Shown: positions 35,083-42,768 of the stretch, in pieces | Position numbering within the stretch: position 1 is the stretch's first letter | How the letters are laid out: every line of letters starts with the position of its first letter | Source: Haloarchaeobius salinus | Lineage (GTDB): Archaea > Halobacteriota > Halobacteria > Halobacteriales > Natrialbaceae | Length of the DNA: 64,000 nt | Assembly: GCF_024464185.1 (NCBI RefSeq) | Contig: NZ_JANHAU010000001.1 | Coordinates: 620,001-684,000 of the forward strand | Direction: 5' to 3' | Program-made: the position numbers and the translations under genes | Notes under the pieces: generated by a model | What the model saw: only the letters and a program-made list of their open reading frames with translations | Database searches by the model: none | What the model was told of the DNA's origin: nothing

Positions 35083-36894
35083 ATGTCGGACTCGGATACA
35101 ACCCCCACGGACACATCGGCGGACGCACTTCGAACCCCCATCGTCGCGGTCCTCGGCCACGTCGACCACGGCAAGACGAGCCTGCTCGACAAGATCCGCG
35201 GCTCGGCGGTCATCGAGGGCGAGGCGGGGGCCATCACCCAGCACATCGGCGCGACCGCGGTCCCGCTCGACGTCGTCTCCGACATGGCGGGCGAACTGGT
35301 CGACCCCGACGACTTCGACCTGCCCGGCCTGCTGTTCATCGACACCCCCGGCCACCACTCCTTCACCACCCTGCGCTCCCGCGGCGGTGCCCTCGCCGAC
35401 ATCGCCGTCCTCGTCGTCGACGTCAACGACGGCTTCCAGCCACAGACGCTGGAGGCCATCAACATCCTGCAGAACACCCAGACGCCCTTTATCGTCGCCG
35501 CCAACAAGGTCGACACGGTGCCGGGCTGGAACCCCAACGAGGACAGCCCCATCAAGCCGTCCTACGACGCGCAGTCCGACCGCGTCCGCGGCGACCTCGA
35601 CGAGCGCCTCTACTCCATCATCGGCGAGCTCTCCGACCACGGCTTCTCCGCCGACATGTACTGGCGGGTGCAGGACTTCCAGAACAACATCGGCGTCGTC
35701 CCCGTCTCCGCGATGACCGGCGAGGGCGTCCCGGACCTGCTCGCGGTCATGATGGGGCTCTCCCAGCGGTACATGAAGGAGGAGATGGAGATCGACGTGG
35801 AGGGCCCCGGCGTCGGCACCGTCCTCGAGGTCAAGGAGGAGCGCGGCTTCGGCACCACCGTCGACATCGTGCTCTACGACGGCACCATCCGCGAGGACGA
35901 CACCATCGTCGTCGGGGGCGAGAACCAGCCGATCGTCACCGACGTGCGGGCACTCCTCCAGCCACGCCCGCTCGCCGAGATCCGCACCGAGAGCCGGTTC
36001 GAACAGGTCGACAGCGTCGGTGCCGCGGCCGGTATCAAGGTCGCCGCACCCGACCTCGACGAGGCGATGGCCGGCGCACCCATCCGCGTCGTCGGCGACC
36101 GCGACCTCGACGAGGTCATCGCGGAGGTCCGCGCCGAGCTCGCCGAGGTCGCCGTCGACACCGAGGAGGAGGGCGTCGTCGTCAAGGCCGACACGCTCGG
36201 CTCGCTCGAGGCGATGGCCGACGCGCTCTCGGAGGCCGAGATCCCCATCGTCCGCGCCGAGGTCGGCGACATCGCCCCGCGCGACGTGGCCGTCGCCTCC
36301 ACCGCGGACGACGACCTCCACCGCGCCATCCTCGGCTTCAACGTCGACGTGCTCGGCGACGCCGAAGACCGCGCCGACGTCGAGGGCGTGAAGATCTACA
36401 CCGACGACGTCATCTACCAGCTCGTCGAGGAGTACGACACGTTCGTCGAGGACCAGCGCCAGTCCCAGCAGGACACCGTGCTGGAGAACATCGCCCGCCC
36501 CGCCCGCTTCCAGATCCTCGACGACCACACGTTCCGACAGAACGACCCCGCCGTCGTCGGCGTCGAGATCCTCTCGGGCACCATCAAGAAGAACCAGCAC
36601 GTCGTGAAGTTCGACGGCAACGACCCCGTCCGCGTCGGCGAGCTCAAGGGCATCCAGGAGCAGGGCGAGGACGTCGACGAGGCCCGCGCCGGCAACCGCG
36701 TCTCGGTCGCCATCGACGGCCCGACCGTCGGCCGGCAGATCGAGGAGGGCGACGAGCTCTGGATCGAGCTCCCCGAGAAGCACGCGAAGATACTGGAGCA
36801 GGAGCTCAAGGAGGAGATTCCGATGGACGAGCGCGAGGCGCTGTCGATGTACCTGGAGAAGCAGCGTAAGCGGGACCCGTTCTGGGGCAAGTAA
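35083..36894 (+). CDS. infB: Translation initiation factor aIF5B
   Basis: GTPase that joins ribosomal subunits and positions initiator tRNA. 603 residues. The G domain has GHVDHGKT (25-32), IDTPGHHSF, and NKVD. It is followed by beta-barrel domain II, the IF-2 domain III and a C-terminal barrel with [28 protein letters not shown], the archaeal/eukaryal eIF5B type. The tail ends [11 protein letters not shown]. The start follows the ribosome site and family alignment; the longer frame from 34996 is not supported. Confidence 0.94.
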
Positions 36895-37168
36895 GCGCTT
36901 TGTGTAGTCGAATGTTTACACACAACTGAGGGCCGCCTGACCCCCCCTGCAGTCTATCGATTTTTCTCCTCCTATGAGGGCTGGGAGGGCATACACACAT
37001 CTATCAGAATTCGTTTGCCAGAGAAGTCACTATGCCACTGTCTTGCGATTCGCCCCTCAGCGGTATCAGACCCCACCCTGACAAAATTAGGTCTTGTCGG
37101 AGGCGATGTGCGTGGGGATATGGTCATCAGACTGTGCCAGGTATCCAGCGGTGTTTGCACAGTCAGTC
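36895..37168. other. AT-richer intergenic stretch after infB
   Basis: Composition changes abruptly from strongly GC-rich to roughly even. A T-run (ATTTTTCTCC, about 36960-36969) may end infB transcription. Short open frames on both strands show no haloarchaeal codon bias and were not accepted. This stretch forms the left edge of the AT-richer island. Confidence 0.45.
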
Positions 37169-37636
37169 TCACCACCTTTCAGCGGGTGAGGCTTCCATCA
37201 GCAGCCATGCAAGAAAAAAGAGAGACACACCGAAAAGTGGAGCAGGCACAAGCAGTATTCCCCCGAAGAAAGCAACTACAAAGGAAGCGATAGCGAGTCG
37301 CCCGCCGCTGTCCCACATCAAAAAGAATCCATACACCAATCCCAGGGCCGTTTCGACAGCGACAAGCACCTCAATCCAGGCAGGGAATTCCGTTGGAACA
37401 ACCACAAAGAGTTGCGACAGATCCAACGCCAGCGACTTGAACGGAGAAATTCCGAGTGCAAGAAGAAGACCGCTGGTACCAGCGATACCCGTCACTGAAC
37501 GCTGCTGGTTCCGCTTCTCAAATGTCTCAATGATGTTCGATATGACGAAGAATAGGAGGGCTGCTGCCACGCCTCCGCCTATCCAGTTGGCTGCAATTTG
37601 GGGGTCAACCAGTGGCTCGGTGAGAGTACCGTTCAT
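37169..37636 (-). CDS. Unknown membrane protein in AT-richer island, five helices
   Basis: 155 residues with hydrophobic segments at about 16-36, 47-65, 86-106, 113-131 and 133-148. Charged loops are short (FEKRNQQRS, the end EASPAERW). Not recognised. Base composition and codon use are AT-richer than all neighbouring genes, which suggests horizontal acquisition. It follows the 34-residue membrane peptide gene with only 4 nt between stop and start, so the two form an operon. Confidence 0.7.
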   Translation of the reverse strand: MNGTLTEPLVDPQIAANWIGGGVAAALLFFVISNIIETFEKRNQQRSVTGIAGTSGLLLALGISPFKSLALDLSQLFVVVPTEFPAWIEVLVAVETALGLVYGFFLMWDSGGRLAIASFVVAFFGGILLVPAPLFGVSLFFLAWLLMEASPAERW

Positions 37637-37640
37637 GGGC

Positions 37641-37745
37641 TCACCGTGGGTCGTTGCCGAGTATCACGTAGTAGACGAACGCAACAATTAGCGTGAGAAC
37701 TACAGCAGCGACGAAGACCGAGATGAATGTGTCAGTTGATACCAT
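37641..37745 (-). CDS. 34-residue single-helix membrane peptide
   Basis: MVSTDTFISVFVAAVVLTLI is followed by VAFVYYVILGNDPR: one transmembrane helix (about 8-28) and a short polar tail. It is supported by a TATA-like GCATTTAGAATT (minus strand, about 37765-37776) 26 nt upstream, a stop 4 nt before the next start, and an otherwise clean frame. Its function is unknown. It may be a partner or regulator of the five-helix protein. Confidence 0.6.
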   Translation of the reverse strand: MVSTDTFISVFVAAVVLTLIVAFVYYVILGNDPR

Positions 37746-37764
37746 TCTGTAGCTCTTATTATGT

Positions 37765-37776
37765 TTCCAATTCTAA
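37765..37776 (-). promoter_or_regulatory. TATA-like box for the membrane-peptide operon
   Basis: GCATTTAGAATT on the minus strand, centred 26 nt before the 34-residue ORF. Confidence 0.4.
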
Positions 37777-37857
37777 ATGCTTTTCTCGACTCTACCCTCT
37801 GCTTAGTCGACTGCACGCACCTGCTTGAAGACCGCTCCACTCACCCACTCCTTTGAT

Positions 37858-38478
37858 ATGGATGCACAGGTACCGCGTGGTATGGTCTGGGAGGTACTTG
37901 CCGCTGCTGCACTCGGTGGACTGGTTGGTTCGTCCGTTCAGGCAGTAGTGAACCGACGAAACGTACGGGACCAGATCGAGGCACAGACCACTCACGTACA
38001 GAAACAAATCGAGGCACAGGATAACCGCCAAAGTGCCGAGACTGCCACGGAGAAGAAAGTAGATGAATTGATGGAAATGTCCATGGCGATGAGTCAGGCT
38101 CGTAGCGTATTGCTGGGTGCTATATCAAAAGTACAGGATGGCGGGGAGGTAGATGTTGACAGAGTGGCGGAGGCAACTATCCAGTACGGCAACCAATTGT
38201 ATATCGTCCAAATGTTTCTCAAAGACAATATGATGGCCGATATAAACGACTTCTATACAGAGTTGATAAATGCGGAGGCGTATTTGATGATGGAGCTTGG
38301 TCAAGAGTTACACCGTTTCAACGAACGGATGGCCACTATCGAGGATGATGCAAAATTCGATATGGAAGAACACGCTTCCGACTTTGACGTTGAGGAATTT
38401 GAAGAAGCTCACCGCCGGGCACTCCAGAGTCTTCGGATGGAAGTGGCGGGACCGATTGAAAGCCTCAAATCCCAGTGA
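37858..38478 (+). CDS. Unknown membrane-anchored coiled-coil protein in AT-richer island
   Basis: 206 residues. One hydrophobic N-terminal segment (about 9-31, WEVLAAAALGGLVGSSVQAVV) is followed by NRR, so the bulk is probably cytoplasmic. A coiled coil at about 35-80 has a repeated QIEAQ. Helical regions to the end include LYIVQMFLKDNMMADINDFY. There are no catalytic motifs. Codon use is AT-richer than the genome average. ATG 37858 was chosen over the upstream TTG at 37825. It is divergent from the membrane-peptide operon. Confidence 0.7.
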   Translation: MDAQVPRGMVWEVLAAAALGGLVGSSVQAVVNRRNVRDQIEAQTTHVQKQIEAQDNRQSAETATEKKVDELMEMSMAMSQARSVLLGAISKVQDGGEVDVDRVAEATIQYGNQLYIVQMFLKDNMMADINDFYTELINAEAYLMMELGQELHRFNERMATIEDDAKFDMEEHASDFDVEEFEEAHRRALQSLRMEVAGPIESLKSQ

Positions 38479-38848
38479 GACGACCGTAGACCCCGCCGTT
38501 GCAACTCTGCTATTCTTCAGAAAGAGCCTCAACCGTCGGATTGAGCCTGATAATTGGCAATCTCGTTTTCGAATCTGCGGGACGTGTGTCTTAGTTCGAC
38601 GAGATCGTGATAATCTATGGCAGTGTCTTTCTCGTACTCGTAGACGGGACTGTGGTCGAACGACCGATAAACCACTGCGCACTCGTGGGCTGACGCGGAG
38701 GTTTCCCGCTACACCACCTTCCAGAGAGCTTCCACCATGTCCACCCGATAGAGCGATTCACAGGATAGAGGTGCAGGCCGTTCAAGCACCTCCACAGACT
38801 CACTGTTCTCTGCGGAAGTAGGGCGGCCCGCAGACTGCTTCTGCCGGC
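38479..38848. other. Right part of the AT-richer island, mostly non-coding
   Basis: 370 nt of intermediate GC between the coiled-coil gene and the Nudix gene. Frames on both strands are short and broken. Only one (38529-38675, minus) looks protein-like, and it is listed separately. No terminal inverted repeats, transposase or integrase remains could be recognised. Confidence 0.4.
38529..38675 (-). CDS. Candidate small ORF or gene remnant, 48 codons
   Basis: From a GTG at 38675 the frame gives an acidic, plausible halophilic peptide (core SFDHSPVYEYEKDTAIDYHD, then LVELRHTSRRFENEIANYQA) ending at TGA 38529. The frame is open a further 10 codons upstream. It has no recognised family and no clear promoter, so it may be the tail of a decayed gene. 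Confidence 0.25.
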   Translation of the reverse strand: MVYRSFDHSPVYEYEKDTAIDYHDLVELRHTSRRFENEIANYQAQSDG

Positions 38849-41287: not shown

Positions 41288-42196
41288 TCAGACCGCGAGC
41301 TGTCGAACCGGCTCGAGGAGGACGGTGTCGGCCGAGGAGATGGTGGCGTCGCCGCCAGTGCCGTCGTCAGGGCCGCCGTTGCCGCCGTTGCCACCGGTTC
41401 CTGCACCGGGGCCGCCGCCGTCGGAGCCGTTGTCGCCGCCGGCGCCGTCGTCAGGACCGCCAGGCCCGTTTCCCGGGCCGTCGGAGACGTTCCCGCGGTT
41501 CTCCGCGTCCTGACCGGGGTTGTCATCGGGGGCACCCTCGCCGTTGCCGCCGGTCTCGTTCCCGCAGTTCGGCCGGTTCTCCGGGCAGTCGTCCCGGTCG
41601 AGACCGGGGACGTCCTCGGGCGGGCCACCCGAACCGAGTTCGCGGGCCATCTCGGCGACCTCGGGGCCGGTGAGCTCGCTCGCGTTCTGCCGGATGCGGT
41701 CGAGCTGGGTCGTGTTCACGCCGGCCTCGCGGGCGGCGTCCTCGGTCTGGTTCAGCGCGGAGCCGAGGGCGGCGAGCCGGCTCGTCAGCGTCGCGAGCTG
41801 TGCGCGGTAGGCCACGCTGTTCATCTGGTCACGGCGTTCCTGCAGCCGCTGTCGCTGCTCCGTGAGGGCGTCGAGTCGCGCTTCGAGGGCGTTCGTCCGA
41901 CCCTCGACGAGCTGTGCTCGCGTCGCGTTGTCCCCGGACCCGTTGAACGCGGCGGCCCACATGCCGCTGTCGACCTCGCCGTCGGCGTCGGCGGCGGCCG
42001 ACTGGGTGAACGTGGAGAAGGCACCGCCCATCGACCGGTTCGAGGAGTTGTTGTCGACGGATGGCGTCCGGACCGGGTCGTCCCCGGCGGATGCGTCGCC
42101 CGCCGTCGGGGGGACGGGACGGTCGGCGACCGCCACGGGGAGGGCTGCGACGGTGAGCACGACGCAGGCAAGTACGGCGAGTGTGCTCTTCATCAT
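41288..42196 (-). CDS. Secreted coiled-coil protein with Gly/Asp/Asn-rich tail
   Basis: 302 residues. It has a Sec signal peptide (MMKSTLAVLACVVLTVAALP, cleavage near 23-26) and an Asn/Ser-rich linker with N-glycosylation sequons. A helical coiled coil follows (about 95-185, NALEARLDALTEQRQRLQER). A long low-complexity tail rich in Gly, Asp, Asn and Pro completes it, with two Cys in DDCPENRPNCGNE. No C-terminal membrane anchor. Not recognised; probably a cell-surface or matrix protein. Confidence 0.7.
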   Translation of the reverse strand: MMKSTLAVLACVVLTVAALPVAVADRPVPPTAGDASAGDDPVRTPSVDNNSSNRSMGGAFSTFTQSAAADADGEVDSGMWAAAFNGSGDNATRAQLVEGRTNALEARLDALTEQRQRLQERRDQMNSVAYRAQLATLTSRLAALGSALNQTEDAAREAGVNTTQLDRIRQNASELTGPEVAEMARELGSGGPPEDVPGLDRDDCPENRPNCGNETGGNGEGAPDDNPGQDAENRGNVSDGPGNGPGGPDDGAGGDNGSDGGGPGAGTGGNGGNGGPDDGTGGDATISSADTVLLEPVRQLAV

Positions 42197-42369
42197 CGGG
42201 TCCTAACACTGTCTACCCTAAAAACCTCCACCACCGTTCGGACGGTTCACCCGTGCGTGCCGGACCGTTCAGAACCGTTTTCACGATTGCAGTCGGTCGA
42301 TTTGCGGTCCGATATAAACACTGCCCGGTAGCCTTTTGCGTGTCAATGTCTTCCATACTGATGCACAGT

Positions 42370-42768
42370 ATGTTCGAAGCGTTCTCGAGTAGCTACTACT
42401 TCGGGCGGTTGTACGTCACGCCGTCCGAGGGCGAAGAGCCCGTGATGCAGCGCGAGCAGCACGAACGCGTCGCCGAACAACTCTACCACGACGGGACCGG
42501 CATCACCCGGGTCGACAGCCCGCTGGTGATGAAACTGGATACGGCCCATCTGGCCGTGCGCGGCGAGGACGGGGTCCCCGCGGACACACTCGCCGTCCCG
42601 GAGTCGCTCCTCGAGCGGACCGGGATCAGCAACCCACCTGAGCTCACCGAGGTGTTCCTCGCGAAAGCGGACCGCGCCTCGCAGCTGCTCCAGTTCACGG
42701 GCTACGGCGATGCCGACTCGGCGGACCCCTCGCCCCGGTTCGACGGTGGCCCGAACGCCGGCACCTGA
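42370..42768 (+). CDS. Conserved haloarchaeal protein (DUF5802-like)
   Basis: 132 residues starting MFEAFSSSYYFGRLYVTPSE. Conserved-looking blocks are QREQHERVAEQLYHDGTGI, DSPLVMKLDTAHLAVRGEDG and AKADRASQLLQFTGYG. It resembles a haloarchaeal family (DUF5802 from memory) of unknown function. The promoter GATATAAACA (42311-42320) would fit a leaderless start at the in-frame ATG 42346, so the protein could be eight residues longer. Confidence 0.7.
   Translation: MFEAFSSSYYFGRLYVTPSEGEEPVMQREQHERVAEQLYHDGTGITRVDSPLVMKLDTAHLAVRGEDGVPADTLAVPESLLERTGISNPPELTEVFLAKADRASQLLQFTGYGDADSADPSPRFDGGPNAGT

Follow-up and report, generated by a model that had tools for sequence, protein, structure and literature searches.

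Of 68 thaumarchaeal iMGEs, 14 were found inserted in the 3'-distal regions of protein genes (PMC6563490), ef-2 is a recorded casposon target (PMC6563490; PMC8371274), and a review places protein genes among the minor integration targets in archaea (PMC8371274). That elements insert into the 3' ends of protein genes in archaea is already known, and the new detail at the locus described here, in Haloarchaeobius salinus, is infB as the site; no paper naming infB as an archaeal insertion site was found in the limited literature collection searched. The island shares with the archaeal integrative elements (PMC6563490, PMC8371274) a location at the 3' terminus of a conserved gene, varied cargo and, possibly, short repeats, and differs from them in its target, infB in haloarchaea, in having no integrase and in measuring only 2 kb. 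The same insertion point is used by VapBC cassettes in two other genomes (G107 and G109), which have a 67-bp copy of the infB tail at their far end and, unlike the island, carry a toxin-antitoxin pair as cargo rather than membrane proteins. The dark matter islands of archaea (PMC4158269) also resemble it, being described in the part of that source consulted as small and strain specific, with fast-evolving, membrane-rich orphan genes; that part treats the class, and neither the infB site nor the present unit was seen there.

Within the 64,000-nt stretch of DNA analyzed (the window), the island comprises positions 36895 to 38848 (1,954 nt), its first base directly following the stop codon of infB (35083 to 36894, plus strand), the host gene whose 3' end is the probable insertion site. 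GC content falls from approximately 0.65 to 0.70 to values of 0.46 to 0.55 right behind infB and rises again at the Nudix gene. The island as a whole has a GC content of 0.522 versus a mean of 0.683 (standard deviation, 0.031) for 2-kb tiles of the window, and 500-nt tiles below 0.56 are confined to it across the whole window scanned. GC3 is 0.55 in the 155-aa and 206-aa genes, compared to 0.92 to 0.96 in five neighbor genes. The drop in composition after infB and the recovery at the Nudix gene, both described in a first-pass annotation of this DNA, are thus confirmed by GC tiles and GC3 alike. Elsewhere in the window, a short dip to 0.57 at 42200 to 42500, near the start of the gene at 41288 to 42196, is probably intergenic.

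Comparison of the interval between infB and the Nudix gene in related genomes yields a pattern of presence and absence; most haloarchaea do not share these genes in synteny through vertical descent. In G003, the nearest species, the two stop codons lie approximately 20 nt apart, representing an empty site; homology of the window with this site returns at 38835, where host DNA resumes (38835 to 38848) and continues into the Nudix gene. Between infB and Nudix, two other genomes (G002 and G004) contain a high-GC alpha/beta hydrolase gene. Neither the 155-aa nor the 198-aa protein is present in the other five species of the genus. With the empty site, the absence of both main proteins from these species and the aberrant GC3, the proposal of horizontal acquisition stands, and the island is recently acquired. 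The DNA behind infB was compared with the window in 120 further genomes of the family, part of which were read gene by gene, with the orientation of the flanks for GC statistics set by tblastn. A GC drop of at least 0.12 just behind infB was observed in 7 of these 120 flanks, relatives of the 198-aa gene occur behind infB only in G119 among all flanks, and none of the family flanks read showed an integrase-bearing element at infB itself. After infB, two flanks (L201 of G061 and L179 of G063) stay AT-rich for more than 1 kb; neither an evident gene nor an infB-tail copy lies there.

All three open reading frames listed by the first-pass annotation, of 155, 34, and 206 aa, were found in the island, and hydrophobicity supports its view that all three products are membrane associated. 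The 155-aa gene (37169 to 37636, minus strand) encodes a polytopic membrane protein of an orphan family, with about four hydrophobic helices and not clearly the five originally assigned, judged from hydrophobicity and a structure model that is too poor for a fold search. Scattered haloarchaeal relatives were recovered from G140, G386, G279, and G402 at 27 to 54% identity, with a weak relative in G133 and none in the other genomes of its own family searched. Over 85 aligned codons, the gene and its Halobacterium-type copy in G140 show 31 differences at position 1, 14 at position 2, and 58 at position 3, which indicates selection as a protein. In addition, Halobacterium plasmids carry copies of the gene broken by a change of frame. 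One such relative, on a Halobacterium salinarum plasmid (L022, 3819 to 5464), lies 4 nt behind a 392-aa gene showing a weak match to the CoiA N-terminal domain, below the Pfam cutoff. The 34-aa ORF (37641 to 37745, minus strand) is located 4 nt before the 155-aa gene. Its single hydrophobic helix was correctly described; its status as a gene is unproven, since no comparable hydrophobic small ORF occurs upstream of any of five relatives of the 155-aa gene.

The third gene, 206 aa long if started at 37858, probably begins at 37882 and encodes a 198-aa single-pass membrane protein (MVWEV...; 37882 to 38478, plus strand), as its relatives begin with MVSE or MVSS there and the alignment of upstream DNA surrounds this ATG. 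It too belongs to an orphan family, which a single-sequence search detected in 2 of 125 genomes of the family, the window's own counted and the other being G119, and a profile search in 11 of 272 genomes of the class, again including its own; relatives are also carried by Halorussus plasmids. Members share a hydrophobic helix at the N terminus, after which comes a charged helical region. The structure model (mean pLDDT, 68.6) consists of one long helix and a helical bundle, for which a fold search returned nothing at an E value of 0.001 or better; weaker matches were generic helical bundles, some of these being receptor sensor domains. Between this gene and Nudix, approximately 370 bp are without a supported gene. 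A 48-aa ORF at 38529 to 38675 was rejected as a gene, as nothing matched it in the 124 further genomes of the family that were searched.

An AT-rich island (GC content, 0.512) is also found directly behind infB in G119, a member of another genus of the same family, and encodes two genes of the 198-aa family in tandem. Upstream of the first of these lies a stretch matching window positions 37001 to 37095 (73% over 96 bp; E value, 3e-10), and a second conserved piece of 16 bp belongs to the same non-coding block (37001 to 37137, plus strand). Conservation is higher in the block than in the gene, given 45% DNA identity between the first G119 gene and the 198-aa gene of the window. Block and gene have equal order and mutual orientation in both islands, the whole G119 unit being inverted relative to infB. 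In G119 the block is directly upstream of the 198-aa-family gene, whereas in the window the two are separated by the 155-aa and 34-aa ORFs; this placement suggests, from gene order, that these two ORFs may have arrived later than the block and the 198-aa gene. No Rfam match to the block was obtained and its folding is not unusual (z scores of 0.77 and 1.72), and an RNA function was therefore rejected. Matches to the block in G297, G260, and G250 were short, one lying inside a transporter-like ORF, and were taken as chance. Just behind infB, both islands share the 12-mer TACACACAACTG (36917 to 36928, plus strand), with 12 of 12 positions matching at the G119 island edge behind the infB stop, possibly a recombinase or arm site. 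At its far end, the G119 island has CTTCTGGGGGAAGT, identical over 14 bp to the infB 3' end (score, 14; shuffled sequences reached at most 13); some loci in that comparison may have been read in the wrong orientation.

Similar copies accompany other insertions. The last bases of infB in the window, TTCTGGGGCAAGTAA (36880 to 36894, plus strand), form an att-like core ending in FWGK-stop that resembles the 3'-end sequence of which other genomes have copies next to insertions, and infB itself is intact through FWGK-stop. In G107 (L177) and G109 (L180), a VapBC pair with PIN and VAPB_antitox domains directly follows infB and is followed in turn by the 67-bp copies, which are nearly identical to the gene's own tail. 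A decayed copy of approximately 36 bp was detected in G083 (score, 19; control maximum, 14). In G107, G109, and G119, the copies all stop at an identical base (AAGT). For the island itself, TTCTCTGCGGAAGTAG (38806 to 38821, plus strand), placed by colinearity with the empty site, may be what is left of a copy of the infB 3' end and would represent the right attachment site; its alignment to the infB tail is weak and not significant alone (P of about 0.05 to 0.14).

Searching 136 genomes for the 15-mer core yielded about one site per genome, the reversed control occurring in only a handful. Several scanned genomes, mostly of one genus, have two sites with the second copy distant; in genus g33, many genomes have two distant infB-end 15-mers, perhaps due to a second infB or a same-tailed gene such as TRAM. 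An infB-end pattern in viral contig L129 was set aside as an unrelated phage gene matching by chance. In G182 (L130, 3359 to 12955), one strand bears two identical copies of TTCTGGGGCAAGTAA at a distance of 9.6 kb; the left copy forms the 3' end of a TRAM gene, which also ends in FWGK. The DNA between them is AT-rich and contains a Phage_integrase gene (tyrosine integrase) just inside. As read from its sequence, this element supports a recombinase that would use TTCTGGGGCAAGTAA, at the TRAM gene and not yet at infB.

We regard the island, with a probability of roughly two in three, as a decayed, integrase-less remnant of a small mobile element at an insertion hotspot at the infB 3' end, carrying orphan membrane protein genes as cargo. 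A small element would have inserted at the 3' end of infB, presumably through a tyrosine recombinase, carrying the final infB codons in a copy of its own and so leaving infB intact, with 38806 to 38821 as the putative worn right end. The cargo may consist of two independent modules, the 198-aa protein with its upstream block and the 155-aa gene with a possible 34-aa leader peptide, the latter module sitting between the conserved block and the 198-aa gene. Since no integrase ORF was found inside the island, in the ORF list or by protein-family search, we call it a remnant or non-autonomous rather than a full tyrosine-recombinase element. This missing integrase counts against a mobile remnant, as do the weak copy at the right end, the absence of integrase-bearing elements at infB in the family flanks read, and the origin of the integrase evidence, which comes from the TRAM gene rather than infB. 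The differing copy lengths, 67 and 14 bp, could also mean that more than one mechanism is at work.

A broader proposal, which we think unlikely, is that a haloarchaeal recombinase lineage recognizes the FWGK-stop 3' end common to infB and TRAM genes, and that integrase-less cassettes, whether VapBC or the 198-aa family with its block, have been moved in trans across genera. We find it rather improbable that no recombinase was involved, with incoming DNA bearing an infB tail recombining within infB by homology or microhomology, joining illegitimately downstream and leaving the old tail as the repeat. Repeats that vary between 14 and 67 bp and the lack of an integrase in the islands read at infB are consistent with such uptake; however, the repeats in three genomes stop at one shared base, and the integrase element at the TRAM gene uses the same core, both of which argue for a specific crossover site.

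The first-pass annotation had grouped the three ORFs into a single membrane system, possibly serving defense, toxicity or sensing. Formulated as a co-adapted unit, the peptide and the polytopic protein would act as a pore or toxin, and the anchored coiled-coil protein would sense or restrain it. The divergent layout and the 4-nt gap between the two minus-strand ORFs fit this arrangement, and relatives of each protein are sometimes located near restriction or methylase genes (L023, L121, L124, and L126). However, the two main families lie at different places in relatives and were never found together outside the source genome among the class genomes and plasmid records searched, the 198-aa relatives compared being those of G119, the Halorussus plasmids and eight further genomes with fetched loci; on this lack of co-occurrence a single functional cassette was rejected. 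The peptide is likewise missing beside relatives of the 155-aa gene. Neither main protein belongs to a Pfam, NCBIfam, or PHROGs family, solved structures searched by sequence gave only weak coiled-coil matches, and PADLOC provided no convincing match, its hits being weak and inconsistent between relatives. A PDC-S34 identity (18 bits) was discarded, as the match spans a helical stretch and relatives match other models. With no defense model matching consistently, the suggested role is without direct support, and a co-adapted three-gene unit is very improbable. The least probable origin is a provirus or plasmid remnant that happened to integrate near infB, in which case the membrane proteins would be viral or plasmid components. 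Although relatives occur on Halobacterium and Halorussus plasmids, the phage records and viral contigs searched gave no match, and another genus uses the same site with an infB-tail repeat.

For the mobile remnant that we favor, the function of both membrane proteins is speculative. Relatives of the 198-aa gene are scattered in small islands, lie close to Pfam-supported integrases in G135 and G157, and have restriction or methylase genes nearby in G321 and on a Halorussus plasmid, these neighbors having been listed by inspection and serving as a lead only. On these grounds, the single-pass helical protein might, tentatively, work at the membrane, either on behalf of the element or in opposition to competing elements or viruses. 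Similarly, we suggest with some reservation that the two membrane proteins could function in the cell envelope to the benefit of the element or its host, with exclusion of rival elements or viruses as the foremost candidate activity.

Here, a vague composition island becomes a mapped insertion hotspot. Its 155-aa and 198-aa proteins represent two uncharacterized haloarchaeal families, and the non-coding block, with its stronger conservation compared to its gene, offers a concrete handle on the spread of small cassettes. The core common to infB and the TRAM gene provides a testable recombinase specificity. As a core gene whose last codons are strongly conserved, infB lends itself to use as a docking site in different genera.
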